Source of the DNA: Xanthobacteraceae bacterium
GTDB lineage: Bacteria > Pseudomonadota > Alphaproteobacteria > Rhizobiales > Xanthobacteraceae
Assembly (NCBI GenBank): GCA_024508855.1
Contig: JANINJ010000107.1
Coordinates: 62,001 to 126,000, forward strand
DNA length: 64,000 bases
Direction: 5' to 3'
The notes beneath the pieces were generated by a model. It was not told the DNA's origin, did no database searches, and saw only the letters and a program-made list of their open reading frames with translations. This document shows, piece by piece, positions 31,595-52,905 of this stretch. Position 1 is the first letter of the stretch, and each line of letters opens with the position of its first letter. Made by a program: the position numbers and the translations under genes.

Positions 31595-32449
31595 TCAACT
31601 ACCGGAGCGCTTTGGATCGTGCCACCGAACCAAGTCGTCGATCATATTTTGCACATGAACAAGCCAGCAATCGCGCCGGTTCAGATCGGCAAGATTTATC
31701 TGCATATAGTTCGACAAAGTATAGAGATTGGAACGATAGAAATAGGTGAGCGACAGGATCGACATATAGACCAGGAAAGTATCGCAATCCGACCTGAAGA
31801 CTTTATCCTCAATGCCGCTCTTTAGAATGCGTTCGAGCATAGCAAACTGAGAGGAAGCAAAAGCGCGGCGAATCCTGTTTTTGATATGCCGGCCTTTAAA
31901 CAGGTTTTCCGATGCCAGGATGCTGAGTAGTTCAGGATGCTCCCAGTAGTATGCCCAGTTGAATGCGACGAGGTTCGCCAGCGCCGTTCGAGGTTGCGAC
32001 AAGTCCAGTACCAGAGCCTCTTCACTTGCAACAAGCCTCTCATAACAATGCTCGATCACCTGATTGAATAGTTTCTCCTTGCTCTGGAAATAGTAATACA
32101 GCATGCGGTCGTTACTTTTAGCCGCCTTACTGATGCGATCGACGCGCGCTCCACCATAACCCTCGCGAGCGAACTCGGTGACTGCGGCGTTAAGCAGTGC
32201 CATCCGAGTGTCTTCCGGCGCGCGACGGCTCTGACCTGTCCTTGATTTTACACCGCCCGACGACCCTACCTTGTCGCCTTCCTTGAAGAATGCCGCGGCA
32301 CTGCTTCCGGCTGTGCGCTTTGGAGAAGCCTTGGCGGCCGGCTTCTGGCCACGCCGTTGGGAGGAAGTTGCTGGGACAGCGTTGCTCTTGCTCATGAAAT
32401 GTTCGTTTGCTTGTTCTGCAGTCGTTTCGGCCGTGAGACTGTGTCCCAT
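31595..32449 (-). CDS. TetR family transcriptional regulator with basic N-terminal extension
   Basis: The 284-residue product has a TetR helix-turn-helix at about 80-135 (ALLNAAVTEFAREGYGGARVDRISKAAKSNDRMLYYYFQSKEKL) and a helical C-terminal domain. The first 75 residues are a low-complexity Lys/Ala/Ser-rich extension that most TetR proteins lack; ATG 32395 (MSKSNA) may be the real start and would shorten it by 18 residues. Divergent from the binding-protein gene at 32570, with a 20-base palindrome between them, so it probably represses both. Confidence 0.9.
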   Translation of the reverse strand: MGHSLTAETTAEQANEHFMSKSNAVPATSSQRRGQKPAAKASPKRTAGSSAAAFFKEGDKVGSSGGVKSRTGQSRRAPEDTRMALLNAAVTEFAREGYGGARVDRISKAAKSNDRMLYYYFQSKEKLFNQVIEHCYERLVASEEALVLDLSQPRTALANLVAFNWAYYWEHPELLSILASENLFKGRHIKNRIRRAFASSQFAMLERILKSGIEDKVFRSDCDTFLVYMSILSLTYFYRSNLYTLSNYMQINLADLNRRDCWLVHVQNMIDDLVRWHDPKRSGS

Positions 32450-32507
32450 ATTTTGGCAGCGACGTCCGCCTTTTTTGCCTTGACTCAGGCGATCAATGCG
32501 GATGAGC

Positions 32508-32527
32508 TATGTAGTAAGTACTACATA
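32508..32527. promoter_or_regulatory. TetR operator candidate in the divergent 32450-32569 region
   Basis: TATGTAGTAAGTACTACATA is a perfect inverted repeat with 9-base arms and a 2-base centre. It lies between the divergently transcribed tetR-like gene and the orphan binding-protein gene, 43 bases before the latter's start codon. Its size and position are typical for autoregulation by TetR proteins. Confidence 0.75.
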
Positions 32528-32569
32528 CATTGATGAAGGATCGTTCCGAACGCTTGCAGGGAGGCCATC

Positions 32570-33772
32570 TTGCTTCGATACAGGACGACTGCCGTTGTGT
32601 TGGCGTTGCTGCTTGGGGGCTTAATCCCTGCATGGGCGGACCCTCCTCCCATTCGTATCGGCGACATATCGAGTTATTCCGCACTGCCCATCGGAACCAA
32701 GGGCTATCGGCAAGGTTGGGAACTCGCGCGAGATCAGATCAATGCCAAGGGCGGCGTCCTGGGCCGGAAGCTTGAGATTATCGCCCGTGACGATGCAGGC
32801 AAACCGGACGTTGCAATCACGCAGGCCGTCCAGCTGGTTGACTCTGAGAAAGTCGATTTACTTACCGGCGGCATCCTCTCGCATGTAGGACTTGCACTAG
32901 CGGACTTCGCCAAACAGAAGAAAATCTATTTCATGGCGTCGCAACCCCTCACCGACGCCATCATCTGGGAAAAGGGCAATCGTTACACATTCCGGCTGCG
33001 GCCCAGCACTTTCACCCAGACCGCGATCCTCGCGAAAGAAGCCGCCAAACTGCCAGCCAAGCGCTGGGCGACAATCGCGCCCAATTACGAACTGGGCCAG
33101 TCGGCAGTCGCCAGTTTCAAAAGCGAAATGAAACAGCTGCGCCCCGATGTCGAGTTCGTCGACGAACAATGGCCGCCACTCGGCAAGATCGACGCCGGTG
33201 CCGTAGTTCAAGCCGTTGCAGCGGCCAAACCGGACGCGATCTTCAATGTCACCTTCGGCTCGGACCTCGCAAAGCTGGTGCGCGAAAGTACCACCCGAAA
33301 CGCCTTTGCGGGCTGTACCGTCGTCAGTCTTATGACCGGCGAACCCGAATATCTTGCGCCGCTCAAGGACGAAGCGCCGGCCGGTTGGTTGGTTACCGGC
33401 TATCCGTGGGACGCGATCAAGACGCCGGAACATGAAGCATTTCTGAAGGCATATATGGAGCGATACAAGGAGCCGCCGAATATCGGTGCCTTGATCGGTT
33501 ACATCAACACGTTGGTGCTGGCAAAGGCGATCGAAACCGCAAAAGGCGTCGATACCGAACAACTGATCAAAGCCACCGAGGGATTGAAGATAACCGATAC
33601 CCCGGTCGGACCGATCACATTCCGCGCTCAGGATCATCAATCTACACTCGGGGTTTATCTTGGCCATCTTGCCGTCAAAGATGGGCACGGCGTCATGACC
33701 GATTGGCGATATGTGGACGGCGCGGACTTTCAAGCGAGCGATGCCGTAGTCGCCAAACGGCGCGCCCACTAG
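32570..33772 (+). CDS. Orphan ABC transporter substrate-binding protein (LivJ/K type)
   Basis: The 400-residue product begins with a signal peptide (1-24, ending PAWAD) and a Peripla_BP_6 domain (IRIGDISSYSALPIGTKGYRQGWELARDQINAKGG, VDLLTGGILSHVGLALADFAKQKKIYFMASQ). TTG 32570 is chosen because GGGAGG lies 6 bases upstream and the signal peptide starts there. No permease is adjacent; the next gene is a Rieske oxygenase 27 bases on. It probably delivers the oxygenase substrate to a Liv-type permease encoded elsewhere, perhaps livHMGF at 20045-23337. Confidence 0.9.
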   Translation: MLRYRTTAVVLALLLGGLIPAWADPPPIRIGDISSYSALPIGTKGYRQGWELARDQINAKGGVLGRKLEIIARDDAGKPDVAITQAVQLVDSEKVDLLTGGILSHVGLALADFAKQKKIYFMASQPLTDAIIWEKGNRYTFRLRPSTFTQTAILAKEAAKLPAKRWATIAPNYELGQSAVASFKSEMKQLRPDVEFVDEQWPPLGKIDAGAVVQAVAAAKPDAIFNVTFGSDLAKLVRESTTRNAFAGCTVVSLMTGEPEYLAPLKDEAPAGWLVTGYPWDAIKTPEHEAFLKAYMERYKEPPNIGALIGYINTLVLAKAIETAKGVDTEQLIKATEGLKITDTPVGPITFRAQDHQSTLGVYLGHLAVKDGHGVMTDWRYVDGADFQASDAVVAKRRAH

Positions 33773-33799
33773 CCGCGCAACTTTTAAAGGAGGTTGCTT

Positions 33800-34846
33800 A
33801 TGCTTTCCAATGCGCCCTCTAATGCCTGGTATCCATTAACCTGGTCCCGCAATGTCGAGCGCAAGTTGTCACGACATAAAGTGCTCGGAATCGACCTCGT
33901 GGTTTATCGCACCGAGGCCGGGCAACCAGTGGCGATGGATGACGTCTGTCCGCATCGCCTCGCTCCGCTTTCCCTTGGCAAACTCAAGGACGATGCCATT
34001 CAATGCGGATATCACGGGATGACCTTCGGCAGCGACGGCCGATGTATCCGCGTCCCAGGCCAACCACAGATACCCGCCAGCGCGAAAGTCACATCCTATC
34101 CGCTACGCGAACGTATGGGTCTTGTCTGGATCTGGCCTGGCGATCCGGCTCGCGCGGACACCGGGCAAATCTACGACTTGCCACAGTACCATTCAAAGCA
34201 ATGGCATTCTGCTGAAGGAGACGCTCTGAGCATCGACGCAAATTATCTCAATCTGGCGGACAATCTCTGCGATCCAGCCCATGTCAGCTTTGTTCACCTC
34301 TCCACCCTCGGTAGCGCAGCCAGCGAAGATATCCCGGTCGAGCACACTGCTAGCGACGATCGAGTGGTGGTTTGGCGCTGGATCCGCAATTCGCCTGCAA
34401 TTCCGCTATTTGCAAAATACGGTAACTTCAAAGGTCCGGTCGACCGTTGGCATTATTACCACTACACGGCGCCTTGCATCGCAGTGATCGACTTTGGCAG
34501 TTCGGATGCGGCACTTGCGATTGATCCCGATCAGCGCGACGATGGAATGCGCATCTTCGCTTGTCATTTCATTACACCCGTGGACGAACATCACTGCATC
34601 GACCACTGGCTGCACGTACGCAACTTCGCGCTAGATGATCTTAATGTCGATCAACGGCTCCACGACGACTTCCGTGTAGCCTTCAACGAAGACAAGGATA
34701 TTCTTGAGGAGATCGACCGCGTCGAACGCGCGCGCCCCGATGCAAAGCGTATCCGCCTCGCTATCGATGCCGCGCCACAAAAGATGCGGCGGATCGTCGA
34801 TCACATGATTGCTGGTAACAGTCCGTCGCCAATTGCTGCGGAGTGA
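33800..34846 (+). CDS. Rieske non-haem iron oxygenase, VanA-like
   Basis: The 348-residue terminal oxygenase binds a [2Fe-2S] cluster through C50, H52, C69 and H72 (CPH ... CGYH) and a mononuclear iron through H161 and H166 with D158 (DPAHVSFVH). Length and sequence fit the vanillate O-demethylase/toluenesulfonate oxygenase group, which demethylates or hydroxylates aromatic acids. ATG 33800 is preceded by AAAGGAGG at ideal spacing. No reductase follows it; the PDR-type reductase at 39185 on the other strand is the nearest candidate. Divergent operon partner: the orphan binding protein. Confidence 0.92.
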   Translation: MLSNAPSNAWYPLTWSRNVERKLSRHKVLGIDLVVYRTEAGQPVAMDDVCPHRLAPLSLGKLKDDAIQCGYHGMTFGSDGRCIRVPGQPQIPASAKVTSYPLRERMGLVWIWPGDPARADTGQIYDLPQYHSKQWHSAEGDALSIDANYLNLADNLCDPAHVSFVHLSTLGSAASEDIPVEHTASDDRVVVWRWIRNSPAIPLFAKYGNFKGPVDRWHYYHYTAPCIAVIDFGSSDAALAIDPDQRDDGMRIFACHFITPVDEHHCIDHWLHVRNFALDDLNVDQRLHDDFRVAFNEDKDILEEIDRVERARPDAKRIRLAIDAAPQKMRRIVDHMIAGNSPSPIAAE

Positions 34847-34921: not shown

Positions 34922-35374
34922 TCACAAACGAACGATGCGCCATTGCAGCAATGAGTATGGCGGATCGCTATCCGGATGGTGTTCAAAGACCCCTTCAACT
35001 GCAATGTCAATTTCAACGGACTGCGCGGGATCCCCCAGCAAGTTGCCTACCATCCGGACGTTGCCGGCATGTGGCAACTGAACAAGTACAGCTATGTACG
35101 GTCCATGCGCCTGAAGGGCAGCGTGAGCCGGATGCCAGACGCGCTCCCAACTGAAAATGCGGCCTCGAGGTTCGACTTCCGTCCATTGAGGGTCGAAGGC
35201 GTGGCATCGATGACAAAGCCACTCCGGACCGAACTGCCATGTCTCACAGTGGGCGCATCGCTGGACGAGCAACCGCCCTTCACGAAGGCCCGTCCAGTAC
35301 GGCGCCGACAAGTCATCGGGCTCCGCCACGGGAATTGGCAGACCTGCAGGAAGACAACCCGCTCGCCCATTCAT
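34922..35374 (-). CDS. DUF35 OB-fold protein with zinc ribbon
   Basis: The 150-residue product has a rubredoxin-like zinc ribbon (C40, C43, C54, C57) and a C-terminal OB fold (about 65-145, RGRIFSWERVWHPAH). DUF35 proteins pair with thiolase-like enzymes or MaoC hydratases as acyl-CoA-binding partners, for example in Ltp2-type aldolases of steroid side-chain breakdown. Its start overlaps the thiolase stop by 4 bases (ATGA), strong evidence that the two act as a complex. Confidence 0.88.
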   Translation of the reverse strand: MNGRAGCLPAGLPIPVAEPDDLSAPYWTGLREGRLLVQRCAHCETWQFGPEWLCHRCHAFDPQWTEVEPRGRIFSWERVWHPAHAALQAHGPYIAVLVQLPHAGNVRMVGNLLGDPAQSVEIDIAVEGVFEHHPDSDPPYSLLQWRIVRL

Positions 35375-36564
35375 AACATCGCCTCCGAGCCGAGAAGAAG
35401 GTTGCTGGCTGGTGTGACCATGGGACCGCCGATAACCATCGCCACATCGTTTCGCTTCACCTGGCTCGTCGAGGTGCCGCGTACCTGACGCACGGCTTCG
35501 AGCACAAGTTCAAAACCGTGCATGTAGCATTCGGCGAGATTGCCGCCGCTGGTATTGAGCGGAAGTCGGCCGGAGGGCGCGATGAGATTTTCGAGCGTAA
35601 GAAAATCATTGGCTTCCTCCGGCCTGAAGAAGCCATGTTCCGCCAGCGCCATCACAACGCCCCCGGTGAAATTCTCATAGCTTTGAACCGAGCCAATATC
35701 GGATGGTCCAAGTCCCGCCATCCGATAGAGATCCGGCGCGACGGTATCGAAATTGGCACTCGCATAGCGCGGCGAATTGTGCGGGATGGCGCCCCCGCGA
35801 TATCCCGATCCCATGGCCGCCCCAAGCACATAAACCGGCTTCTGCCTGAAATCCGCGGCTCGTTCCTCAGCCACCAGAACAAGCGCGGCGGCGCCATCAT
35901 TTTCCATGCAGCAATCGTAAAGGTGGAAGGGCTCTGCAATCCAGCGCGACGCGTCATACTTTGCCGCGTCCAGCGGCTTACCGTGCATGACCGCACGGGA
36001 GTTCGATTGCGCATGGTGATAGGACGCAAGCGCAATCGCGCGTAGCGCTTCCTGTCGCACGCCATGCTCATACATGTAGCGCTGCACGCGCATCGCAAAG
36101 CGTTGCGGCGGCGCGAGCACGCCGTAAGGCATCAGGTACGCCTTCTCGCCGGAAATAGTGTCGATACCTGCGGTCTGCCCGAACCGGCCGTACTGTCCCT
36201 GCGCCAGCGAGCGGAACACGACCACGCAATCGGCGAGACCCGCAACGATAGAGGCCGCCGCGTTGGCCACCGCTGCGCAACATCCCCCGCCGCCTCCGCC
36301 CCATTGCATCGTGGCGGTACGCAGCCGGTGTGTACCAAGGGCCGCGGCCAGCCGCGAGGCCTCGCTGCGATCGTCGCTGTAGGAGGAAAACCCATCGATT
36401 TCGCGCGGATCGAGCCCAGCATCTTCGCAAGCTGCCAGGATAGCTTTCAATGCAAGTTTGAATTCCGGATCGGGGGATGCGCCATGACGATAGTATTCGG
36501 TCTCGCCGATTCCGATAACGGCGACACGACCTCGGAGCGTACGTTGAATTTCCGTGCGCCTCAT
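35371..36564 (-). CDS. Thiolase family protein (lipid-transfer/Ltp2-like)
   Basis: The 397-residue protein matches the SCP2/lipid-transfer thiolase group (VAVIGIGETEYYRHGASPD start; NTSGGNLAECYMHGFELVLEAVRQVRGTS near the C-terminus). A Gly run with two Cys (GGGGGGCCAAVANAA, about 95) is in the nucleophile region, and the His-containing GxH motif of Claisen thiolases is not obvious in the C-terminal part. That fits retro-aldol or unusual thiolase activity with the DUF35 partner. Starts 7 bases after the CoA-transferase stop. Confidence 0.85.
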   Translation of the reverse strand: MRRTEIQRTLRGRVAVIGIGETEYYRHGASPDPEFKLALKAILAACEDAGLDPREIDGFSSYSDDRSEASRLAAALGTHRLRTATMQWGGGGGGCCAAVANAAASIVAGLADCVVVFRSLAQGQYGRFGQTAGIDTISGEKAYLMPYGVLAPPQRFAMRVQRYMYEHGVRQEALRAIALASYHHAQSNSRAVMHGKPLDAAKYDASRWIAEPFHLYDCCMENDGAAALVLVAEERAADFRQKPVYVLGAAMGSGYRGGAIPHNSPRYASANFDTVAPDLYRMAGLGPSDIGSVQSYENFTGGVVMALAEHGFFRPEEANDFLTLENLIAPSGRLPLNTSGGNLAECYMHGFELVLEAVRQVRGTSTSQVKRNDVAMVIGGPMVTPASNLLLGSEAML

Positions 36565-36571
36565 GACGGAT

Positions 36572-37849
36572 TCACTTTTCAGGCGATGGCTTTAACACCC
36601 CAAACGTTCCCGCCTTGGCAAGATCCGCCATCCGCTCATCGTCATAACCAAGCAGTTCGCGTAAAATGATGTCGGTGTGTTGCCCGACCGCAGGAGCCGC
36701 AACGGGATCGACGACCGGCGTACGCGAATAGCGGATTGGCAGCGCTACGTTCGGCACCCACCCCACCTGTTCGTGCGGAATGCGGGTCACGAGTTTACGC
36801 TCTCGCGCTTCAGGCGACCGGATGGCTTCGCCGACGGTGCGTACCTGTCCGCACGGAACACCTGACGCCCGCATGCGCGATTGCCAATGCGACCAGGTCT
36901 GTTTTGCGAAGGTTTCTCCCAGAATCGCGAACAATTCGTCCCGCCTCTGGATTCGATCGGGTCCCGAAGCATAAATCTCGGCCACCGCGAGATCCGGGCG
37001 ATCAATCACCTGCGACATCAATCGTTGGAAAATCTTGTCGTTTCCGCAGTTGATATAGAACGCGCAATCCTTGGCCTGAAACACGCCCGATGGACAGGTG
37101 TCCGGACTCGTGTTGCCGCCCCGCTGAGGGTTGGCACCACTGAACAGGTGTTGCATCGTGGCATAGCCGGTCATAAGCACAGCATTATCGAACAAGGACA
37201 CTTCAATAGCTTGACCGATACCGCTACGTTCACGGGCGACCAAAGCACCGAGAATCGCATTGCAAGCCATCATCGCCGTGCTGATGTCCATGACTGGCGA
37301 CAGGGCGCGAACGCCCTCGCGGTCAGCATAGCCATTCATGGATACGAATCCGCTTTCAACCTGGGCAATCGGATCGAAACCGAGCCGGTCGGCGAACGCG
37401 CCGTCACGCCCGTAAGCGGACACCGAGCAGTAAACGATCTCGGGCTTGATCTTGCGACAACTCTCGTAGTCGAGTCCAAACCGCGGCATGACACCGGTGG
37501 AGAAATTTTCGACCACCACGTCGGCATGCGCTATCAGCTCACGCGCAACCTCGATGCCTCGCGACGACTTGAGATCGATTGCAACGCTGCGCTTGTTGCG
37601 ATTGGTCCAAAGAAATGGCGCCCCCTGTTTGAGCTCCGCATTGACCGGCGGGTAGCGACGGAGATCATCGCCGCGATCGGGCGCCTCGACCTTAATGACT
37701 TCCGCACCCATATCGGCCAGGACCATCGTTGCAAACGGTCCAGCGATGAAATGCGAAAAGTCCACTACGCGAACGCCCTCGAGGGCCCTCGGCGCGTGGG
37801 ATTGACGCGGCGTATATTCCGGGAAATCCGCTTCAAGCTGGTCAAACAT
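36572..37849 (-). CDS. Class III CoA-transferase (CaiB/BaiF family)
   Basis: The 425-residue protein has the family start GVRVVDFSHFIAGPFATMVLADMGAEVIKVEAP (25-57), the NRNKRSVAIDLKS segment and the nucleophile region RLGFDPIAQVESG with catalytic Asp D159. It should move CoA between a donor acyl-CoA and a carboxylic acid. It lies upstream of the thiolase/DUF35 pair, so it may activate the substrate that they later cleave. Cytoplasmic. Confidence 0.92.
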   Translation of the reverse strand: MFDQLEADFPEYTPRQSHAPRALEGVRVVDFSHFIAGPFATMVLADMGAEVIKVEAPDRGDDLRRYPPVNAELKQGAPFLWTNRNKRSVAIDLKSSRGIEVARELIAHADVVVENFSTGVMPRFGLDYESCRKIKPEIVYCSVSAYGRDGAFADRLGFDPIAQVESGFVSMNGYADREGVRALSPVMDISTAMMACNAILGALVARERSGIGQAIEVSLFDNAVLMTGYATMQHLFSGANPQRGGNTSPDTCPSGVFQAKDCAFYINCGNDKIFQRLMSQVIDRPDLAVAEIYASGPDRIQRRDELFAILGETFAKQTWSHWQSRMRASGVPCGQVRTVGEAIRSPEARERKLVTRIPHEQVGWVPNVALPIRYSRTPVVDPVAAPAVGQHTDIILRELLGYDDERMADLAKAGTFGVLKPSPEK

Positions 37850-37928
37850 TTGGTGTCCGTTCGATTTCGAGGCTCGTGCTCACAAAATTGGAAAGTCGCC
37901 GCTACATTCTGGAACGCGCCTTCTTCAT

Positions 37929-39152
37929 TCAATCGCTCTTGGATTGTTCGACCAAGGCGCATCCCCCATCGGCAAGTGGCCGGAATGCTTCGGGTCCGCT
38001 CAAGACCCCGACTTGCTCCAGCAGGTCCCATTTGCTCTTCGAGGCAGGCGGCGCCTTCACCTTGAGGATGTACATGTTGTGAATGGCACGACCATCCGGA
38101 CGCACGACGACAGGTCCAAACAGATCGTCCTCGATCGGCTTCTCTTTCAGCTTTCGAATAATTGCTGGCGCGTCGTTGGTTCCTGCAGCAAGTGCTGCAT
38201 TCAGATACGCAAGAACGGATGAATAGACACCGGCGTGAAATGCCGTCGGCGATTGACCATGCTGACGTTCACTAAATCGCGCGGACCAGGAACGGCTCTT
38301 GTCGTTCAAGTCCCAATAGAAAGGCTGAACGATGATGAGCCCTTGTCCGACGGCGAGTCCGCTCGCTTCAACGTCGTTCGTTGTCGTCAGCAGGGCTGCA
38401 AAAGTGCGCCCGTTTTGCCTGAGACCAAATTCGGCTGACTGTTTGATCAAGTTCACCGTATCGCCGCCGGCCGTTGCGAATGCGATTACATCGGCACCCG
38501 AACCATCCGCCTGCAGGATGAATGAAGCATAGTCCGCAGTGTTGATCGGCACGTTGACCGATCCGAGAACGGTTCCACCGCTGGCCTTGATCACCGATGT
38601 TCCGTCATGAACCATCGATTTACCAAGAGCATTGTCAGTCGCGATAAAGTACCACTTCTTGCCGCCATGATGGACGAGATAATCACCGATGGTGTGAGAA
38701 GCCGCCCAGGTATCGAACGTCCATTGGATTGTGTTCGGGGAACAATGCTTTCCGGTGAGATCGGACGAGGCGGCGCTCGACGCGATCAGAGCTGCCTTGG
38801 TACCTCGAACAACTTCATTGACGGCAAGACCGACGGCCGAATTCGGTACATCGGCGACCGCGTCCACTTTCTCTTGATCGATCCATCGGCGCGCAATCGC
38901 GGCGCCGACGTCGGCCTTGTTCTGATGATCGGCGGAGATGATCTCGACCTTAAAGCCGGGATATTTCTGCATAAAATCCTCGGCCGCCATTTTCGCCGCC
39001 GTAACAGAGCCTCCACCGGCATTATCCGAATAAGGGCCGGAAGCGTCATTGAGGACTCCGATCTTCATTGTGCGCGGCCCATCCGCAAACGCGACCGAAC
39101 AGGTCGTCAAAACAAGAAGAGATATTCCAAGGATATGCTGCAAAGTTCTCAC
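37929..39152 (-). CDS. Orphan ABC transporter substrate-binding protein (LivJ/K type)
   Basis: From GTG 39152 (GGATGGA upstream) the product is 407 residues with a signal peptide (about 1-24, LGISLLVLTTCSVAFAD) and a Peripla_BP_6 domain (MKIGVLNDASGPYSDNAGGGSVTAAKMAAEDF). The open frame continues 64 codons further upstream without a signal peptide start, so GTG is preferred. It lies between the PDR reductase (32 bases) and the CoA-transferase (79 bases), with no permease. It probably captures the substrate of this oxygenase operon. Confidence 0.9.
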   Translation of the reverse strand: MRTLQHILGISLLVLTTCSVAFADGPRTMKIGVLNDASGPYSDNAGGGSVTAAKMAAEDFMQKYPGFKVEIISADHQNKADVGAAIARRWIDQEKVDAVADVPNSAVGLAVNEVVRGTKAALIASSAASSDLTGKHCSPNTIQWTFDTWAASHTIGDYLVHHGGKKWYFIATDNALGKSMVHDGTSVIKASGGTVLGSVNVPINTADYASFILQADGSGADVIAFATAGGDTVNLIKQSAEFGLRQNGRTFAALLTTTNDVEASGLAVGQGLIIVQPFYWDLNDKSRSWSARFSERQHGQSPTAFHAGVYSSVLAYLNAALAAGTNDAPAIIRKLKEKPIEDDLFGPVVVRPDGRAIHNMYILKVKAPPASKSKWDLLEQVGVLSGPEAFRPLADGGCALVEQSKSD

Positions 39153-45180: not shown

Positions 45181-47421
45181 CTATTTCGGAAGCCCAAGGC
45201 CACGTTGTGCAATGAGGCTTCGTTGGATCTCGTTGGTTCCGATGCTGATGACCCACATAAGCGAATGACGCAGGTTCTGCTCGAAACGTCCGTTGTCGAT
45301 CGCTCCCGCCATTTGCTCGGAAAGCGCAGCGCGCATGCCGAGAATATCGAGCGCGGCTTCGCCAAAGCGCTCCATCAACTCGCCGGAAAAGACTTTACTG
45401 ATGGCACCATATTCGGGCGGCGTCACACCGTCGGTAGCCAGTTCTGCACAATGCATCATCAACTGCCGTCCGACCTCGATTTCAGAGGCCAGTATTGCCA
45501 TTTTATCGCGAACGAGCGGGTCATCGGCAAGCGATGGGATATCCTCCACTCTCGCAGCAATGCGCTTGCGCAATTGCTCGAACGCATGCGCAACTCTTAG
45601 AACGATGCCGCCGCCAACCAGACCGCGCTCGAAAGCAAGTGCGCCTGTCAGTACCTTCCAGCCGCCATTGACTTCGCCAACGAGGTTTTCGAGGGGAACG
45701 CGGACATCATCGTAAAAAATGTTGGCGAACGAGCCATCATACATGGTGGGTGCCGACCGAACGGTAATGCCCTTCGCATCCATCGGAACGATGAACATGC
45801 TGATCCCGGCGTGCGGCGGCTTGGCATCCTTGTCAGTCCGTGCGGCCAGGAACATGTATTTGCCCCACCAGGTCGTCGTCCATATCTTCTGGCCATTGAT
45901 AACCCAATGTTCGCCGTCCCTCACCGCGCTGGTACGAAGTGCGGCGAGATCGGAGCCTGCCTGCGGTTCGCTGTACCCCATGCCATGCATTGCCTCGCCG
46001 CGAAGGACTTCCGGCAGGTATTTTTTCTGCTGCACTGGCGTACCGAACATCATCAACGCGTTCGCCTGGATCGCAGCTCCAATCCGAGGCGCCTCGCCGT
46101 GCTCCATCGTCTCCATGAAAGCGATCTGTTCGAGTGGCGAGCGTGCCTGCCCGTCGAACGCTTTCGGCCAACCCAGGCCGATCCAACCAGTCTTCCCGAT
46201 ATCGTGCGCAAACTCGGCATCGAACTCACGTTTGGAAAACGGCTTATTGTCAAATGCAGCCTTACGCTCTCCCGACCAGTTCTGCTCCAGCCAGAGTCGC
46301 ACCTCCTCGCGCAAAGCGTTGCCGGCCGGGCCGAGGTCGTATTGGGGCAACGCAGCACCGCCGTTATCCAGCAGATACCCAGCGAGCCGTCGTTTCGCCC
46401 ATCCTGCCCCACCTAACGCGATCGTATCGAGATGCACCCGCTTGAAATGTAACGGCGCCTCGTGCTCTTCAGCATAACCGATCGCTCCGAACGTATGCTG
46501 CGTCTCAAGCGACACCTGCCTTAGCGCGCTGCCGGCAAAAGCGGTCACGCAATCGGCAAAATACTGCCAATCGTTATTGCCGCCATCGTGCAACTCAGCC
46601 GTATGGCCGAGCATGAGGCGCACGCCTTCGAGAGAAATCAGACAGTTCGCAAGCTTGTGCTGGATCGCCTGGAATTTTCCGATCGGCTGTCCGAACTGCC
46701 GTCGCTCCTTGGCATAGTCGACCGCCAACTCGAAGGCGTGCTGGGCAGCACCGTATGCGCGGGCCGTCAGCATCAGTCTTGCCTGGAGCAGAAGATCGTC
46801 GCCGGCGTCGTGTTCCAGTGTCAGAATAGTCACCAGCGCGGCATTGAGACGGACCTCATAGTATCCCCACGCCCCTAAAGCGCGGGTCGGTTCGAGCTCG
46901 ACGCCAGGTGCATCCAACTCGAGAAGCGCAAACGACGATCGGTCCAGCGCCACCAGCAAGTGCGTGCAGCTACCCGCAACTTCTACGAATCGAAGCAGAC
47001 CACTTGCTGCTCGGTTTGCAACATGGATCGCACCTGCACTGGAGTCAGGATCCAGCAACCCGAATGAGAAAGCAAGGCAGGCCGATCCCGCATGCATCCG
47101 TTCCAGCAAGCCAGCCGAAACGTCGGCTCGACAAGCTGAGAGTACGAAATTGGCCAGCGCCGCCGACCACATCGGCGCCGGACAGGCTGCCCTACCAAGC
47201 TCAGCCATGGCGACGATGATCTCGGCAAGGCCACCCTCGTCGGAACCGGCGCCAAGCGCGCCAATGCCCTGCCCCACGAGCTTACGCCAGATCGCCGAAA
47301 TATCCTCAGGCGACGCTTCGCGCCTGAGGGCATCCGTGCGCCAATGCTCACCGAGAAATCCCCGAAGGGAATCTCGGAGCATTTCCCTGATGTGCCCGGC
47401 CGGGAGCTCCGTCGCATCCAT
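45181..47421 (-). CDS. Fused two-domain acyl-CoA dehydrogenase
   Basis: The 746-residue protein (from ATG 47421, 9 bases after the crotonase stop) has two acyl-CoA dehydrogenase units in tandem, about 1-365 and 385-746; family members are normally 380-400. The C-terminal unit is better conserved ([49 protein letters not shown]), while the N-terminal unit looks degenerate. The usual MCAD-position Glu (YEGT) reads SIGT here; E598 in AFERGLVGGG is at the isovaleryl-CoA dehydrogenase position. Such fusions parallel heteromeric ACADs of steroid side-chain and ring degradation. Needs FAD and passes electrons to ETF. Confidence 0.9.
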   Translation of the reverse strand: MDATELPAGHIREMLRDSLRGFLGEHWRTDALRREASPEDISAIWRKLVGQGIGALGAGSDEGGLAEIIVAMAELGRAACPAPMWSAALANFVLSACRADVSAGLLERMHAGSACLAFSFGLLDPDSSAGAIHVANRAASGLLRFVEVAGSCTHLLVALDRSSFALLELDAPGVELEPTRALGAWGYYEVRLNAALVTILTLEHDAGDDLLLQARLMLTARAYGAAQHAFELAVDYAKERRQFGQPIGKFQAIQHKLANCLISLEGVRLMLGHTAELHDGGNNDWQYFADCVTAFAGSALRQVSLETQHTFGAIGYAEEHEAPLHFKRVHLDTIALGGAGWAKRRLAGYLLDNGGAALPQYDLGPAGNALREEVRLWLEQNWSGERKAAFDNKPFSKREFDAEFAHDIGKTGWIGLGWPKAFDGQARSPLEQIAFMETMEHGEAPRIGAAIQANALMMFGTPVQQKKYLPEVLRGEAMHGMGYSEPQAGSDLAALRTSAVRDGEHWVINGQKIWTTTWWGKYMFLAARTDKDAKPPHAGISMFIVPMDAKGITVRSAPTMYDGSFANIFYDDVRVPLENLVGEVNGGWKVLTGALAFERGLVGGGIVLRVAHAFEQLRKRIAARVEDIPSLADDPLVRDKMAILASEIEVGRQLMMHCAELATDGVTPPEYGAISKVFSGELMERFGEAALDILGMRAALSEQMAGAIDNGRFEQNLRHSLMWVISIGTNEIQRSLIAQRGLGLPK

Positions 47422-47429
47422 GGGAAGCG

Positions 47430-48239
47430 CTACGCCTGGCCGAATTTCGGCTTGCGCTTCTCCTTGAACGACGTGGTCGCCTCCTTGTGATCTGCCGTTT
47501 CGAACGTCACCTGCTCCAGCGCCATCGAGGCTTCTAGCAGCATGTTGACGCGATCCTTGACGATCTGATTGATCGAAAGCTTGGTCCAACGAATGGCCCA
47601 GGTTGGACCGTTAGCTAGCTCAAGGGCGATCTCACGGGCCTTCGCCAGCACTTCTGCCCGTGGAGCCACGTGATTGACCAGTCCAATCCGCTCGGCCTCC
47701 TTTCCTTTCAGGAGGGTGCCGCGGATCAGGTATTCCTTGGCCTTGTTGATACCGATCAGCAGCGGCCAGATCACAGTGCCGCCGTCGCCCGCGACGAGGC
47801 CCACTCGTGATACGTGGGTATCGCCGATGCGGGCGTCTTCGGCCATCACAGTGATGTCGCTCAGCAATGCGTGCGTCGCGGCAAGACCGATAGCGTCGCC
47901 GTTAATGGCGGCAATGATCGGCTTGTCCAGCTCGAGCTGACGGGTAACCGCACGGCGACTGATCATCGGATCGTGCACCTCGCCCTCTTCCAACACATCG
48001 CCACCCGGACGTTCCGACATCGCCTTGACGTCGCCGCCAACACTGAAGAAATCACCTGCGCCCGTCAGCACAACGCAATTGACGGCATGGTCGTCGCCGA
48101 GATCGTCCCAGATCGTCCGCAATTCGCGGATCAGCTTCTGGTTGATGGCATTGCGCGCCTGCGGCCGATTCAGCATTACGGTCGCGACCTTGTCCGCGAC
48201 ATCGACCTTCAGGCACTCGTACTTGGCATATCTCGACAC
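47430..48239 (-). CDS. Enoyl-CoA hydratase/isomerase (crotonase) family protein
   Basis: The 269-residue product has the crotonase core (VATVMLNRPQARNAINQKLI, oxyanion stretches FFSVGGDVKAM and INGDAIGLAATHALLSDI, and RIGDTHVSRVGLVAGDGG). GTG 48239 follows GGGAGG and is preferred to the long upstream extension. The first catalytic Glu of enoyl-CoA hydratases is not evident, and the second position is Asp in AGDGG, so hydratase versus isomerase or lyase activity is uncertain. It lies between the FadR-like regulator and the fused ACAD. Confidence 0.88.
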   Translation of the reverse strand: MSRYAKYECLKVDVADKVATVMLNRPQARNAINQKLIRELRTIWDDLGDDHAVNCVVLTGAGDFFSVGGDVKAMSERPGGDVLEEGEVHDPMISRRAVTRQLELDKPIIAAINGDAIGLAATHALLSDITVMAEDARIGDTHVSRVGLVAGDGGTVIWPLLIGINKAKEYLIRGTLLKGKEAERIGLVNHVAPRAEVLAKAREIALELANGPTWAIRWTKLSINQIVKDRVNMLLEASMALEQVTFETADHKEATTSFKEKRKPKFGQA

Positions 48240-48288
48240 AGTTACCTCCCTTGTAGTGATTGATCGGATGCAGCCTTCGGAGCGCAGA

Positions 48289-49155
48289 TTAACGGCGCAT
48301 GCCGGGCTGCACTTCAGCCAGCGCAACGTGTAGCGACATTGCGCCCGGGTCCTGTTCCAACATTCGCTGCACGGACGCTAGGTGACTTCGCATTGAGCGA
48401 GTGGCCGCTGCGACGTCACGCGCACGCAATGCTGCCATGAATTGTCGACGGTTCTGCGCAAGCCGCGGCATCGCCACACCACTTGAGACCACCTTGGCAT
48501 AGACGAAACGCATGTGGATTTCGGTGACCGAGTCCATGATCATCGCGATCACCTTGTTGCCAGTCGATGCCGCCAGGAGTTTGTAGAATTCACGCGAGCA
48601 TTCGACCCGGTCCAGCAGCCGACCCTCGCGCGTTGCAAGCTCCGTGCTCTCAATATTGGCCTCAAGCACCTCGAAGTCGGCTTGACTAGCGTTGGTGCAA
48701 GCAAGCCGCACTACCAGGTCGAGAACATTGATTCTCGCCTCCGACAACTCCCGCACGGAAATCGTGCCCAAGCTCAGCATGTCGCGCATAACGACATTCA
48801 TGCGGCTGGTATCGCCTTCCCGGATGAAGGCACCGCCTTTGACGCCCTTTTGCAGTCGCAGAACGCCGGCCATCTCGAGGCTGCGCAGCGCCTCGCGCAG
48901 AACGTTGCGACTGACGCCGAGCTGCTGCGCCAGATCTCGCTCGGGCGGCAGCTTGTCGCCCGGTTTGAGGATGCCGAGGGCCAGTTGCTCGCGAATCCGC
49001 TCGCAGATTTCCTCGAACGCGCGACGGGTATGAATCGGCCGAAACTTCGGCGGCGGCGCCCCGCCGGCAACCCGATGATCGACAACACGGTCGCGGCGAT
49101 CGACCGAAGCGGATCGCGGCCGGCTGGGCTTTCGAGGGCTTGACTTGGTGTTCAT
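48289..49155 (-). CDS. GntR/FadR family transcriptional regulator, FCD-type
   Basis: About 288 residues from ATG 49155 (ATG 49179 is also possible): basic N-terminal tail, winged helix at about 55-120 (GILKPGDKLPPERDLAQQLGVSRNVLREALRSLEMAGVLRLQKGVKGGAFI) and FCD ligand domain to about 270. The operator motif lies immediately upstream (49171-49190). It is first in the crotonase-ACAD-CoA-transferase-P450 run and divergent from the acyl-CoA dehydrogenase at 49232; it probably represses both sides in response to an acyl-CoA or acid intermediate. Confidence 0.92.
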   Translation of the reverse strand: MNTKSSPRKPSRPRSASVDRRDRVVDHRVAGGAPPPKFRPIHTRRAFEEICERIREQLALGILKPGDKLPPERDLAQQLGVSRNVLREALRSLEMAGVLRLQKGVKGGAFIREGDTSRMNVVMRDMLSLGTISVRELSEARINVLDLVVRLACTNASQADFEVLEANIESTELATREGRLLDRVECSREFYKLLAASTGNKVIAMIMDSVTEIHMRFVYAKVVSSGVAMPRLAQNRRQFMAALRARDVAAATRSMRSHLASVQRMLEQDPGAMSLHVALAEVQPGMRR

Positions 49156-49170
49156 GAGATGGATTATTAA

Positions 49171-49190
49171 ATGGATCACCCATTCAATGG
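49171..49190. promoter_or_regulatory. FadR/GntR operator candidate in the divergent 49156-49231 region
   Basis: Two overlapping inverted repeats occur: ATGGATCACCCAT (49171-49183, arms ATGG/CCAT) and CCATTCAATGG (49180-49190, 5-base arms around C). They sit between the FadR-like gene and the divergent acyl-CoA dehydrogenase. GntR proteins bind short near-palindromes of this kind. Confidence 0.6.
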
Positions 49191-49231: not shown

Positions 49232-50371
49232 ATGAGCTTTACCGAGGAACAGATCGCCTTCCGCGACAATGTTCGAAAGATGGTCCTAAGACACGTTGCG
49301 CCGATCGCAGCGGAGATCGACGAGACCGACCGCTTTCCGCTTGAGATCGTGAAACTGTTCGGCGAGATGGGGCTGATGCAGTTGTGGGTGCCCGAGCAAT
49401 ATGGCGGCCCGAACGGCAATCTGACGATGGCCTGCATCGCTCGTGAGGAGATATCCAAGGTCTCCCCGGCCTGCGCTTCGATCGCCGCTCTGAACACCAT
49501 GTTCATCATGCCGCTGCTCCATTTCGGTTCGGAGGAGCAACGCAGGAAATACCTGCCTATCATCGCCAAAGGCGGTGTCGTGACCGCGATCGCGATTTCA
49601 GAGCCGCAGGCCGGCTCCGATGTCACTGCGATCAATACCAGGGCACGCAAGGACGGCGACAGTTACATCCTTAACGGCCGCAAACAATGGTGCAGCTACG
49701 GCGTCGCCGCTGATTATATCGTGATGATGGCGCGGACCGGCGATGGGCCCGGTGCCGACGGCATCAGCGCCTTCATCATCGAGCCGAAGAAGATGCCCGG
49801 CGTGTCGTTTGGACGCCACGAGCGCAAGATGGGATTCCGCGGTGCGCCGAACACGCCTATCTTCCTGGATAACGTGCGCGTGCCGGCCGAGAATCTCGTT
49901 GGTGACGAAGGCAAAGGTTTTCGAGCTTCAATGCGCGCGCTCGACCTCAACCGTCCGACCATCGGCGCACAGTCCGTAGGATTGGCGCAAGGCGCACTCG
50001 ACGCCTGCATTGCCTATGCCAAGGAACGCAAACAATTCAAGAAAGCGATCTCTGAATTCCAGGGCGTGCAATTCATGCTCGCTGACATGGCGATGCAGAT
50101 CGAAGCAGCACGTGCGCTCGTCTACGAATGCGCACGAGCGGGTGACGCGGGCGACTGGAAACGCCTCAATGTCCTTGCCAGCATGGCCAAGTGCGTCGGC
50201 AGCGACATGGCGATGAAGGTTACGACCGATGCCGTCCAGATCTTCGGTGGCTACGGCTACACCATGGACTATCCGGTCGAACGCATGATGCGCGATGCAA
50301 AACTGACCCAGATTTTCGAAGGCACCAATCAGATCCAACGCGTCGTCATCGCTCGCGAACTTTTACGCTAA
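49232..50371 (+). CDS. Acyl-CoA dehydrogenase
   Basis: The 379-residue enzyme has all ACAD landmarks: [25 protein letters not shown] at the start, [14 protein letters not shown] and [15 protein letters not shown] for FAD/substrate contacts, [24 protein letters not shown], and [10 protein letters not shown] with the canonical catalytic Glu. It performs alpha,beta-dehydrogenation of a short or branched acyl-CoA with ETF as acceptor. It starts 77 bases from the divergent FadR-like regulator and is followed 30 bases later by a binding-protein gene. Confidence 0.93.
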
Positions 50372-50401
50372 CAACCATAAAATAATTTGGAGGAAACAAT
50401 A

Positions 50402-51616
50402 GTGACCCTTGCATACAGCCGCGCCTGGGGCGCGCTCGCCTTGTCCGCGCTGCTCATTACCCCGCCTGTCTGGGCACAAAAGGCTTATAGTCCCGGCGCA
50501 AGCGATACCGAAATCAAACTCGGTCAATCGACCCCACTCAGCGGCCCGGCTTCTGCCTTTGGCGCCGGTGCTGGTCGCGCCGTCGTCGGCTACTTCGAGA
50601 TGCTGAACGAACATGGCGGGATCAACGGGCGCAAGATCAGCTTCACGCAACTCGACAATGCCTACAGTGCGCCCAAAGCGGTCGAGCAATCGCGCAAGCT
50701 CGTCGAAAGCACTGGAATACTTGCGGAGGTCGGCACCATCGGCACGGTGCCCAACGTCGCCATTCAGAAATACCTGAATTCGAAGAAAGTGCCGCAGCTT
50801 TTTATCACGGCCGGCGGACGCCGCTTCAATGATCCCAAAACATTTCCCTGGACCGTTCCACTCTATCCCGATTTCGAAACGGAAGGCAGGGTGGTCGCGA
50901 AATACATTCTGAAAACCAAGCCCGATGCAAAAATCGGCGTTCTGTATCAGAACGACGACTACGGAAAGGATTACCTCAAGGGGTTGCGCGCTGGTCTCGG
51001 ATCGAAGGAATCTCAAATCGTAATGCAGGCTTCCTACGAGCTTGCCGATCCAACTATCGATTCGCAGATCGTCCAACTCAAGGCTGCGAACATCGATACG
51101 CTGATCGAACAGTCCTCTTCGAAAGCGGCAGCGCAATCAATCCGCAAGGTTCACGAGCTGAACTGGAATGTGCTTCATATCATTGGCGGGTCGACCGCAT
51201 CGGTCGAGACCATCTTAAAGCCAGCAGGTCTTGAGGCTTCGAAAGGACTGGTGACGACGCAATTTCTCAAGCAGCCCGGCGATCCCGCATGGGCCAACGA
51301 CGAGGAGGTCAAAACCTACAAGGACTTCCTGAAGAAATACGCACCATCCGTCAATCCCGACGACTATTCCGTGCTGGTTGCTTACATGAATGTCCACGCC
51401 ATCGAGCTCGTCTTGAAGAAATGCGGGGACCAACTGACCCGCGAGAACCTGATCCGCCAGGCGACATCTTTGCATGGCGAACGGCTGCCGATGATGCTCC
51501 CCGGAATCTCGATCAGCACCAAACCGGACGACTATGCGGCCTTCAAAACATTGAGAATGGCGGTTTTCAATGGTGAAAGCTGGACCCTGTCCGGGGACCC
51601 GATATCGGCCGAATGA
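50402..51616 (+). CDS. Orphan ABC transporter substrate-binding protein (LivJ/K type)
   Basis: From GTG 50402 (GGAGGAAA 6-13 bases upstream) the product is 404 residues with a signal peptide (1-25, ending PPVWAQ) and a Peripla_BP_6 domain (IKLGQSTPLSGPASAFGAGAGRAVVGYFEMLNEHGGINGRKI). It follows the acyl-CoA dehydrogenase in the same transcript and lacks a local permease. A large hairpin (51641-51681) follows the stop. Confidence 0.9.
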   Translation: MTLAYSRAWGALALSALLITPPVWAQKAYSPGASDTEIKLGQSTPLSGPASAFGAGAGRAVVGYFEMLNEHGGINGRKISFTQLDNAYSAPKAVEQSRKLVESTGILAEVGTIGTVPNVAIQKYLNSKKVPQLFITAGGRRFNDPKTFPWTVPLYPDFETEGRVVAKYILKTKPDAKIGVLYQNDDYGKDYLKGLRAGLGSKESQIVMQASYELADPTIDSQIVQLKAANIDTLIEQSSSKAAAQSIRKVHELNWNVLHIIGGSTASVETILKPAGLEASKGLVTTQFLKQPGDPAWANDEEVKTYKDFLKKYAPSVNPDDYSVLVAYMNVHAIELVLKKCGDQLTRENLIRQATSLHGERLPMMLPGISISTKPDDYAAFKTLRMAVFNGESWTLSGDPISAE

Positions 51617-51640: not shown

Positions 51641-51681
51641 GTCGAGAGAAGTGGCGAAAGCCAGCCTCGCCACTTCTCGAC
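51641..51681. terminator. Bidirectional terminator-like hairpin
   Basis: The left arm GTCGAGAGAAGTGGCGA (51641-51657) pairs with TCGCCACTTCTCGAC (51667-51681): 15 base pairs with a 2-base bulge and a 9-base loop. A TTATTCT run follows on the minus strand, none on the plus. It ends the plus-strand binding-protein gene and lies just past the stop of the minus-strand gene remnant, so it may have served both. Confidence 0.65.
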
Positions 51682-51693
51682 CCGCTCACTGGC

Positions 51694-51843
51694 TCACGAA
51701 GCAATCCCGTCGAGATCGACCAAGCCCCCAACCGGAATCCAGTTGGCGCCGTCGAAACGAGTGATCTGAAGGTTGTGGATCGCGCGATAATCGACCAGTG
51801 AAGAATTCGGCGCGACTTGCACCTTTCCATTTTCGGCACCCGC
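51694..51843 (-). pseudogene. C-terminal remnant of a LivJ-type substrate-binding protein
   Basis: Minus-strand codons here read GKVQVAPNSSLVDYRAIHN, then a stretch ending ITRFDGANWIPVGGL and a stop at 51696-51694. This is the usual C-terminal end of branched-chain-type binding proteins. No upstream coding part exists: the frame is blocked by stops from about 51847 upward, and the sequence there instead matches another gene end on the plus strand. It marks a deletion or rearrangement. Confidence 0.7.
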
Positions 51844-51904
51844 GAGCTATATCGCTGCGCAGAACATTCTTGTCGACGGCGAGGCCTATGTTGGCGCATT
51901 CTAG
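51830..51904 (+). pseudogene. Possible C-terminal remnant of a short-chain dehydrogenase
   Basis: Plus-strand codons read SAPASYIAAQNILVDGEAYV and then GAF-stop at 51902-51904. The pattern x-TGQ-NILVDGGAY is the common C-terminal end of SDR oxidoreductases, here slightly degenerated (AAQ for TGQ, E for G). The reading frame before about 51825 belongs to the opposite-strand remnant. Only about 23 codons support the assignment. Confidence 0.45.
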
Positions 51905-51957
51905 TGCCAGCGGACATTCCCTTCGCCGTCCATCTCCCCCGCGCAATCAGGATTGTC

Positions 51958-52905
51958 ATGAAAAACAAGGCATTTGAAACCGCAATTTCGGAAACCGCAG
52001 AGTCTCTTGTCGGACCCTGGCGGCAACCTCGGCAAATGCTGCATGCGCAAACCTACGATTCTCATGCATCGATCCATGACGACGCGACGGCGCAGAAGCT
52101 TGGATTTCAAGGCGGAACGATTGAGGGGCCGACACACTTCAGCCAGTTCGCGCCACTCTGCGAGCGGATTTGGGGCAACGCCTGGTTTGGAACCGGATGC
52201 CTTTCCGCACACTACCGTAATCCGTCTTTTGAAGGCGAAGAGGTACAAGCTTACATCGAAAAGCCCGCACCCCAGCAGTCGTTGTGCAAAATCTGGATGA
52301 CAAAGCGAGACGGAACCGAAGTCCTGCGCGGCACCGCCTCGATCGGCCCGCAGCATGTACAAACCGCGCTCGATCAAAGATTGCTGGAATTAAAGCCGCT
52401 CGCGGATCCGGTAATCTTGCGCGACATAAAGGTAGGAATGAAAACTCCGCGGCAGACCATCCGGATGGACTTCGATCAAACGATGGGGGACCTCTATCCG
52501 TTTTCGCTGCGCGACAAACTGAAGATGATCACGGAGCCATCGGCCTTCTACGAAGAAGCCGCTCAGACCCCTTGGCATCGCCCTGTGATTCCTTTCGAGA
52601 TGCTGAGTGTGCTGTTTCAGTATCGCTCTCGTGACGATCAATTGCCGACGAGAGGCCCTGCTGTCGGCCTGTTCGCCGATCAAGAGATCCGGCTGTTGCG
52701 CGGCCCTCTCTTTGTCGGTGAGGATTATCAAACCGAACGCGAAGTGGTTGCGCTAAGCGGTAGCCGCCGAACCGAGAGCATGTGGGTCCGCACAACAGTG
52801 CTCACGATGAACAACGAACCCGTCGCGACGATGTTACTCAATCTCGCGAGCATCAAGGACTCTTATCACGACTACCAGACAGAGCACGCCAAGCTCTACT
52901 CTTGA
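51958..52905 (+). CDS. MaoC-like hot-dog fold protein
   Basis: The 315-residue product begins at ATG 51958; the open frame upstream to 51817 covers the remnants and is rejected. LGFQGGTIEGPTHFSQFAPLCERIW (about 40-65) and VRTTVLTMNNEPVATMLLNLASIK near the C-terminus resemble MaoC/hot-dog hydratases or fluoroacetyl-CoA thioesterase-like proteins, but the hydratase D-x4-H pair is not obvious. It could act on a CoA intermediate of the neighbouring pathway. No close operon partner; function uncertain. Confidence 0.72.
   Translation: MKNKAFETAISETAESLVGPWRQPRQMLHAQTYDSHASIHDDATAQKLGFQGGTIEGPTHFSQFAPLCERIWGNAWFGTGCLSAHYRNPSFEGEEVQAYIEKPAPQQSLCKIWMTKRDGTEVLRGTASIGPQHVQTALDQRLLELKPLADPVILRDIKVGMKTPRQTIRMDFDQTMGDLYPFSLRDKLKMITEPSAFYEEAAQTPWHRPVIPFEMLSVLFQYRSRDDQLPTRGPAVGLFADQEIRLLRGPLFVGEDYQTEREVVALSGSRRTESMWVRTTVLTMNNEPVATMLLNLASIKDSYHDYQTEHAKLYS

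Follow-up and report, generated by a model that had tools for sequence, protein, structure and literature searches.

We analyzed a 64,000-nucleotide stretch of DNA from a Xanthobacteraceae bacterium (assembly GCA_024508855.1, genome of 5.16 Mb), comprising positions 62001 to 126000 of the 446-kb contig JANINJ010000107.1 and called the window below, in which a group of oxygenase and acyl-coenzyme A (acyl-CoA) genes occupies positions 31595 to 52905. Gene content, gene linkage, and catalytic residues lead us to favor, by a little over even confidence, the reading that the core of this group, which joins a Rieske oxygenase to a thiolase-fold protein resembling a retro-aldolase, converts a ring acid to a catechol by removing its acetate-type side chain. 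The core, at 34922 to 41975, moves as a unit among genomes, and a beta-oxidation module joins it in Bradyrhizobium; a cytochrome P450 gene is optional, while a VanA-type Rieske block and the right edge of the region are neighbors. That the whole region constitutes one pathway seems to us somewhat doubtful.

Linkage was surveyed with the LigXa_C-type oxygenase of the core as the query and one genome scanned per species. Relatives were found in 508 stretches, the best 80 of which were kept as 78 loci: 34 from Bradyrhizobium and close kin (oxygenase identity of 89 to 93%), 35 from other proteobacteria (61 to 72%), and 9 with an oxygenase below 50%. The first two groups are the 69 core loci; most of the 78 loci end at 10-kb flanks. 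A window protein was scored as present in a locus at an identity of at least 55%, or at least 40% for the reductase outside Bradyrhizobium. Locus counts were made by tblastn, except those for a KstD-like flavoprotein and for a second, about 30% identical type of thiolase-fold protein, which came from a home-made gene-calling script that missed or misplaced some genes.

The synteny check put forward in a preliminary description of the region was run in this way, and the linkage recurred: CoA-transferase, "thiolase," and DUF35 genes all lie beside the oxygenase in 41 of the 69 core loci, from Bradyrhizobium to Burkholderiales. The arrangement exceeds chance: among the 34 Bradyrhizobium loci, the reductase and a small protein were present in 34, a MarR regulator in 33, CoA-transferase 1 in 31, the aldolase and its DUF35 partner in 28 each, and the substrate-binding protein PBP2 in 24. 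The genes of the second module were nearly as regular there (acyl-CoA dehydrogenase 2 in 32, CoA-transferase 2 in 29, fused acyl-CoA dehydrogenase in 28, crotonase and GntR regulator in 27 each, and PBP3 in 24), with the P450 gene in 5 and a further P450 fragment at the edge of locus L018. Outside Bradyrhizobium, CoA-transferase 1 was found in 15 of the 35 loci, the aldolase and DUF35 protein in 14 each, acyl-CoA dehydrogenase 2 in 3, the reductase, at its lower threshold, in 23, and the remaining listed genes in none; the 9 loci with the most distant oxygenases held no window protein at the 55% threshold. These per-gene counts are the basis on which we describe the core as a unit to which the second module is attached in Bradyrhizobium. 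In favor of a linked core, the oxygenase and aldolase distance matrices are correlated (r = 0.82 over 40 loci, with 0 of 2,000 permutations as high, and r = 0.65 within 15 non-Bradyrhizobium loci), although this correlation does not tell linkage from shared host descent. Named relatives of the core come from Bradyrhizobium and other proteobacteria, which makes the host a relative of Bradyrhizobium. Since the core aldolase occurs in none of seven genus mates (searched at an E value of 1e-120) while one member of the family, G035, has the whole arrangement, the cluster was probably acquired by the host lineage.

The thiolase-fold protein (35371 to 36564, minus strand) resembles a retro-aldolase of the Ltp2 type. 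The PDB entry that it matches best is Ltp2 itself (6ok1, 252 bits), which ranks above true thiolases, and the position of the thiolase cysteine is taken by glycine, within a WGGGGGG stretch. In the part of PMC12329534 consulted, Tyr294 of the YDHF motif of Ltp2 is given as the catalytic base and Tyr344 as the acid, and the window protein aligns with these residues through Tyr296, in a YENF motif, and Tyr347. Both tyrosines are kept in all 46 matches of at least 60% identity and 300 aligned residues (split copies, such as those in L033 and L048, omitted), with the third motif residue being Asn in 44 and Ser in 2. The pair is not a trivial feature of the fold, since more distant thiolase-fold homologs in the same loci retain the first tyrosine and have Arg, Asn, Cys, or Ala in place of the second.

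The presumed partner subunit of the aldolase, a ChsH2-type DUF35 protein with a zinc ribbon and an OB fold (34922 to 35374, minus strand; PF12172 and PF01796), is encoded by a gene overlapping that of the aldolase by 4 bases, so that the pair spans 34922 to 36564. Its zinc ligands read C-x2-C-x10-C-x2-C, a C4 pattern that the same part of PMC12329534 describes as usual for DUF35 partners. The "thiolase"/DUF35 pair of the preliminary description therefore stands as to fold and partner, whereas the catalytic residues point to a retro-aldolase; its proposal of an acid that first undergoes oxygenation and is afterward cleaved in the form of its CoA ester gains support, the predicted cleaving enzyme having kept the retro-aldolase tyrosines. 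Elsewhere the components occur in other associations. One locus, L125 of genome G247, has the aldolase (67%) and DUF35 protein (64%) at 11818 to 13436 with no LigXa_C-type oxygenase in the 19.9 kb around the aldolase and no other oxygenase among the five neighboring open reading frames (ORFs) scanned. In Rhodobacterales (L060, L057, and kin), the same oxygenase is accompanied by a thiolase-fold protein of about 30% identity, with YDGF and with Arg for the second tyrosine, a zinc-ribbon DUF35-like protein, and CoA-transferases.

The core oxygenase (40241 to 41560, minus strand; PF00355 and PF19301) is presumably a ring (ipso) dioxygenase. Its best PDB matches are 7fhr (623 bits), 9ina (293 bits), and 7fjl (230 bits). 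The consulted part of PMC12445078 treats isophthalate dioxygenase, phthalate dioxygenase, and an oxygenase of Cupriavidus metallidurans, and from residue numbering and a 60% match in strain CH34 we infer that these correspond to 9ina, 7fjl, and 7fhr, respectively. Arg233 of the window oxygenase aligns with the carboxylate-binding arginine of phthalate dioxygenase (residue 244) and isophthalate dioxygenase (residue 234) and is arginine in all 71 loci compared at 60% identity or more over at least 380 residues, a count that omits L074 (split) and L089 and L092 (59 to 60%). The second arginine of phthalate dioxygenase, Arg207, is not conserved in the alignment. Conservation of Arg233 hints that a free carboxylate or other anionic group is recognized by the oxygenase; it would favor an anionic group on the substrate and would fit either a free acid or a CoA ester that carries a second acid group.

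Adjoining the oxygenase is a reductase with flavin and NAD domains and a C-terminal 2Fe-2S domain (39185 to 40231, minus strand; PF00970, PF00175, and PF00111), its presumed electron donor. Directly upstream lies the gene for the small protein, an ORF at 41583 to 41975 on the minus strand whose probable TTG start near 41894 leaves about 103 residues (41586 to 41894). This protein, conserved upstream of the oxygenase throughout the Bradyrhizobium loci, occurs at 38 to 47% identity in 12 of the 35 other loci, and 22 columns are invariant among 24 sequences. It looks HicB-like and may serve the oxygenase as an accessory protein or as a regulator.

Together, these parts suggest the following sequence of events. 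A binding protein, such as the ATP-binding cassette (ABC) substrate-binding protein PBP2 of the core (37929 to 39344, minus strand, its listed start probably too far upstream; PF13458), would import the ring acid. The LigXa_C oxygenase and its reductase would add two hydroxyls to the ring, one at the carbon of side-chain attachment and one at its neighbor, placing a tertiary hydroxyl beta to the carboxyl group, and family III CoA-transferase 1 (36572 to 37849, minus strand; PF02515, 422 bits) would make the CoA ester before or after oxygenation. In the thiolase-fold/DUF35 pair, Tyr296 would then take the hydroxyl proton and Tyr347 would protonate the enolate, so that retro-aldol cleavage would give a catechol and acetyl-CoA or propionyl-CoA. 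Ring opening of the catechol probably falls to an intradiol dioxygenase whose gene lies elsewhere in the genome, which has six intradiol dioxygenase matches. As a separate observation, positions 381296 to 407289 of the same contig hold an alpha-type Rieske oxygenase, an HsaA-family match, and three intradiol dioxygenases within 26 kb.

A pointer to the product comes from a plasmid of Delftia acidovorans (L089), which carries two inverted copies of the core, each consisting of oxygenase, CoA-transferase, aldolase, and OB-fold genes, at 12420 to 16689 and 27741 to 32010, with an IS1071 transposase gene nearby. Close to them are an intradiol-dioxygenase-like gene, apparently split into two overlapping ORFs, a cycloisomerase-like gene, a gene annotated as maleylacetate reductase, and a relative of 4-sulfomuconolactone hydrolase (368 bits, under the 500-bit cutoff). 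We infer that this neighboring set serves 4-sulfocatechol degradation, and because the core lies near the hydrolase relative, its product may be a substituted catechol. By the title of their work, Schulz et al. in 2000 reportedly followed 2-(4-sulfophenyl)butyrate via 4-sulfocatechol in a Delftia, of a different strain; by analogy, this is the conversion that the core would perform.

The closest parallel among known systems is ibuprofen degradation. In the consulted portion of PMC9195938, ibuprofen is converted to its CoA ester, the ester to a dihydrodiol, and the dihydrodiol by retro-aldol cleavage to propionyl-CoA and 4-isobutylcatechol, with the alpha/beta oxygenase said to act on the CoA ester. 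On plasmid pIBU218 of Rhizorhabdus wittichii MPO218, the genes stand in a row encoding oxygenase alpha and beta subunits, IpfD (395 residues; accession from PMC11347016), an OB-fold protein, and an AMP-binding protein. The window core shares with ipfABDEF the set of roles (oxygenase, retro-aldolase, DUF35-type OB-fold protein, and CoA activation), and IpfD, 30% identical to the window aldolase, has both tyrosines, the first in YDAF rather than YENF. The two differ in their enzyme families. The ibuprofen pathway uses an alpha/beta Rieske enzyme (IpfAB) and an AMP-binding CoA ligase (IpfF), whereas the window encodes a LigXa_C oxygenase of one subunit, accompanied by a reductase, and for CoA activation a family III CoA-transferase; the window has no match to PF00848, the alpha/beta type, all such matches of the genome lying outside it. 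The same plasmid (L136) carries at 4534 to 8152 a second set of lipid-transfer-protein, OB-fold, crotonase, and CoA-transferase genes, with YDHF and a second tyrosine.

Other systems resemble the core in part. The steroid side-chain aldolases Ltp2-ChsH2 and Sal-Shy have the same thiolase fold, DUF35 partner, and, as in Ltp2, tyrosine base and acid, but their motifs are YDHF (Ltp2) and YDCY (Sal) in place of YENF, no MaoC hydratase stands beside the window aldolase, and in the window cluster the hydroxyl would be made by a Rieske oxygenase. Among the PDB matches listed, the nearest oxygenases whose substrate is known are those of Comamonas testosteroni KF1 for isophthalate and phthalate; they share one carboxylate-binding arginine with the window enzyme, whereas the latter is without Arg207 and is linked to CoA-transferase and aldolase genes. 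The dihydrodiol dehydrogenase and decarboxylase of the phthalate/isophthalate pathway were not among the Pfam matches to the ORFs in 31595 to 55326, and neither those pathways nor the vanillate pathway matched in full gene set. Indoleacetate degradation (iad) of Variovorax and Bradyrhizobium was suggested by similar hosts, a MarR regulator, and CoA-dependent side-chain loss after oxygenation; in the part of PMC12633357 consulted, Rieske oxygenation is followed by removal of the side chain after CoA activation. IadDE is, however, an alpha/beta enzyme and IadF an acyl-CoA synthase, and this candidate was set aside since no alpha/beta Rieske gene occurs in the window. The MarR regulator of the window, divergent from the core operon (42069 to 42617, plus strand; PF01047), has 2nnn and PcaV as its best PDB matches at about 50 bits, and the IadR structures (codes in PMC11630574) are not among the matches listed. 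Isoflavone degradation (ifc) was likewise rejected, the consulted description of that pathway naming no Rieske or CoA genes. With phthalate/isophthalate, vanillate, iad, ipf, and steroid routes tested and none matching in full, the preliminary view that the pathway is not assignable to a known one holds; judged mostly from listings, we did not recognize this combination of genes in published work.

The second module would most likely shorten or oxidize a longer or methyl-bearing side chain ahead of the core. It comprises family III CoA-transferase 2 (43950 to 45170, minus strand; PF02515), a fused acyl-CoA dehydrogenase of two units end to end with Pfam domains in both halves (45181 to 47589, minus strand, true start probably nearer 47430), a crotonase (47430 to 48326, minus strand; PF00378), a GntR/FCD regulator (48289 to 49179, minus strand; PF00392 and PF07729), and, in divergent orientation, acyl-CoA dehydrogenase 2 (49232 to 50371, plus strand; PF02771/PF02770/PF00441) and the ABC substrate-binding protein PBP3 (50387 to 51616, plus strand; PF13458). 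The crotonase probably starts at a GTG, codon 30, near 48239; GGGAGG lies upstream at start candidates.

The P450 gene (42638 to 43879, minus strand; PF00067) encodes a protein whose best PDB match is P450terp (1cpt, 369 bits). The P450terp operon has genes for a ferredoxin and for alcohol and aldehyde dehydrogenases beside that for the P450, and the Pfam matches show none of these beside the window P450. Each of the five P450-bearing Bradyrhizobium loci has a gene for a Zn-alcohol dehydrogenase between those for the P450 and CoA-transferase 2, its product 88 to 100% alike to the copy in L019; in the window, no such gene lies in the 70-base gap between them, and the best copy in the genome is 37% identical. 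On a Sphingobium plasmid, a similar P450 (47%) likewise adjoins an aldehyde dehydrogenase and a relative, at 47%, of the Zn-alcohol dehydrogenase. Because alcohol, and in one case aldehyde, dehydrogenases accompany it elsewhere, the P450 probably begins a methyl-to-acid oxidation, and in some genomes the P450 and alcohol dehydrogenase would belong to side-chain preparation. Within about 40 kb of the core, Cupriavidus metallidurans CH34 has an aldehyde dehydrogenase and a P450 (42%) with its reductase, as well as a VanA-type oxygenase (33%), not an ortholog of the window VanA-type enzyme, beside alcohol and aldehyde dehydrogenases. Upper parts of a comparable kind thus recur in the neighborhood of the core.

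Several observations weigh against side-chain removal to a catechol. The LigXa_C oxygenase family is known for free aromatic acids, unlike the alpha/beta ibuprofen enzyme with its CoA ester. The YDHF motif of Ltp2 is absent from the window aldolase, and the scanned genes of the window include none for ring cleavage. No close aldolase is present in 27 of the 69 core loci, several of which are short contigs, with 21 of the 27 among the 35 other loci; 11 of those 21 hold the 30%-type thiolase-fold protein, with Arg for the second tyrosine in the members listed. Six of the 34 Bradyrhizobium loci are without the aldolase in the fetched flank (one cut short), their genomes holding only 34 to 36% homologs. 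Finally, the KstD-like flavoprotein found beside the core in several beta-proteobacteria and Delftia (six loci or records) and absent from the window would be superfluous to an ipso-diol route.

That flavoprotein would find a place if the substrate were alicyclic. In this case the Rieske enzyme would monohydroxylate a cyclohexane or terpenoid acid, perhaps from a p-menthane-type precursor, at a tertiary carbon, and the aldolase would release a ring ketone and an acyl-CoA; models related to the flavoprotein include oxocyclohexane carboxylate dehydrogenases, the P450 is nearest in the PDB to P450terp, and the fused dehydrogenase is of a kind that we take to be found with bulky ring acyl-CoAs. 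We nevertheless think this unlikely, given that the Delftia core adjoins genes for an aromatic, 4-sulfocatechol-like product, that phthalate and isophthalate are the substrates of the nearest oxygenases for which one is known, and that the P450 is present in only 5 of 34 Bradyrhizobium loci. Quite improbable is a steroid or bile-acid cluster in which the CoA-transferases, fused dehydrogenase, crotonase, Ltp2-like aldolase, and P450 would shorten a sterol side chain. The aldolase and DUF35 protein are indeed nearest to the Ltp2 system, the C-terminal half of the fused dehydrogenase is nearest to 4x28 (200 bits) and 6wy9/6wy8 (Tcur3483), whose role we assume to be in steroid degradation, and an HsaA-family match elsewhere in the genome, at 342.7 bits against a 450-bit cutoff, is a further point for this alternative and against ours. 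Yet the genome holds no clear KshA, its two PF19298 matches (22.8 and 22.5 bits) being the window VanA-type enzyme and another VanA-like oxygenase, a negative that is weak because no true steroid degrader was among the control genomes; to our knowledge, a phthalate-family Rieske enzyme is not part of steroid side-chain routes. The alicyclic, terpenoid, or steroid-like acid envisaged in the preliminary description is accordingly less likely in its steroid form, while an alicyclic or terpenoid acid keeps a small share of the probability and the Delftia and ibuprofen parallels favor an aromatic acid.

A different alternative leaves the chemistry of the core aside and holds that each of three units (core, beta-oxidation module, and VanA-type block) has a substrate of its own and that they share only a neighborhood. 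We regard this as a substantial possibility, if short of an even one. The divergent orientation, several regulators, and three binding proteins speak for it, as do five Bradyrhizobium loci (L015, L018, L023, L028, and L039) that have the core oxygenase beside acyl-CoA dehydrogenase 2 without the fused dehydrogenase or crotonase, the beta-proteobacteria that retain the core without the second module, and the absence of the VanA block from all 69 core loci; against it, most Bradyrhizobium loci have the second module next to the core (28 of 34 by the fused dehydrogenase), and in Delftia and Cupriavidus, too, pairs of dehydrogenases and genes for CoA activation are found close to the core. It is very unlikely, in turn, that the pathway ends in ordinary thiolytic cleavage, with the thiolase-fold protein acting as a true thiolase or an acyltransferase. 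Public records label it generically as an acetyl-CoA acetyltransferase and many NCBIfam thiolase models match it, but it has no cysteine at the nucleophile position and keeps both Ltp2 tyrosines, so that the label hides a probable C-C-cleaving aldolase.

Under our favored reading, in which the core removes a side chain to leave a catechol, we tentatively raise a broader and less probable proposal. Soil proteobacteria (Bradyrhizobium, Burkholderiales, and Rhodobacterales) may share a widespread, unnamed route by which natural arylacetic or 2-arylalkanoic acids lose their side chain through ipso-dioxygenation and retro-aldol cleavage. Its enzymes would be an oxygenase of the phthalate family, a CoA-transferase, and an aldolase of the YENF type, joined in alpha-proteobacteria by a dedicated small accessory protein; its use on Delftia plasmids for sulfophenyl carboxylates, which arise from detergent breakdown, would represent a recent recruitment. 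If the favored reading holds, one could predict from such gene sets a conversion of para-substituted arylacetic acids to catechols, with a bearing on plant phenolics in the legume root zone, profen drugs, and detergent residues, and YENF would be a third active-site motif of the Ltp2/Sal aldolases.

The Pfam scan, which covered the ORFs in 31595 to 55326, found the whole inventory of the preliminary description and placed every named class at its position: two Rieske oxygenases, one FAD/NAD/2Fe-2S reductase, one P450, two family III CoA-transferases, two acyl-CoA dehydrogenase ORFs, one crotonase, the thiolase-fold/DUF35 pair, and three Peripla_BP_6 binding proteins. ORFs 41583 to 41975 (minus strand) and 51817 to 52905 (plus strand) matched no Pfam or NCBIfam family. 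Three regulators, of the TetR, MarR, and GntR/FCD types, lie inside the limits of 31595 and 52905, which join several transcription blocks. The description of this region as one composite cluster did not survive the comparison, given the P450 counts above and a VanA-type block that, like the right edge, looks separate from the core. This block, at 31595 to 34846, consists of a TetR regulator (31595 to 32449, minus strand), PBP1 (32570 to 33772, plus strand), and the VanA_C-type Rieske oxygenase (33794 to 34846, plus strand). None of these proteins, nor that of ORF 51817, ACAD3, FAH, or HyuA, reached the 55% threshold in any of the 69 core loci, and the block has a linkage of its own: PBP1 (56%) and the VanA-type oxygenase (50%) adjoin each other in an unrelated stretch of another genome (L123).

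The right edge likewise falls outside the cluster in which it had been included, ORF 51817 having homologs of 55 to 59% identity in four of the seven genus mates (one with an internal stop), none of which has the aldolase. This ORF probably starts at codon 48, and by eye its product resembles MaoC-type hot-dog proteins. To the left of the region, the minus strand from 18181 to 31343 apparently holds another catabolic cluster, with a caprolactamase/acetophenone-carboxylase-like pair, an FAH-family hydrolase, a DHDPS-family protein, an IclR regulator, and an ABC transporter with its binding protein.

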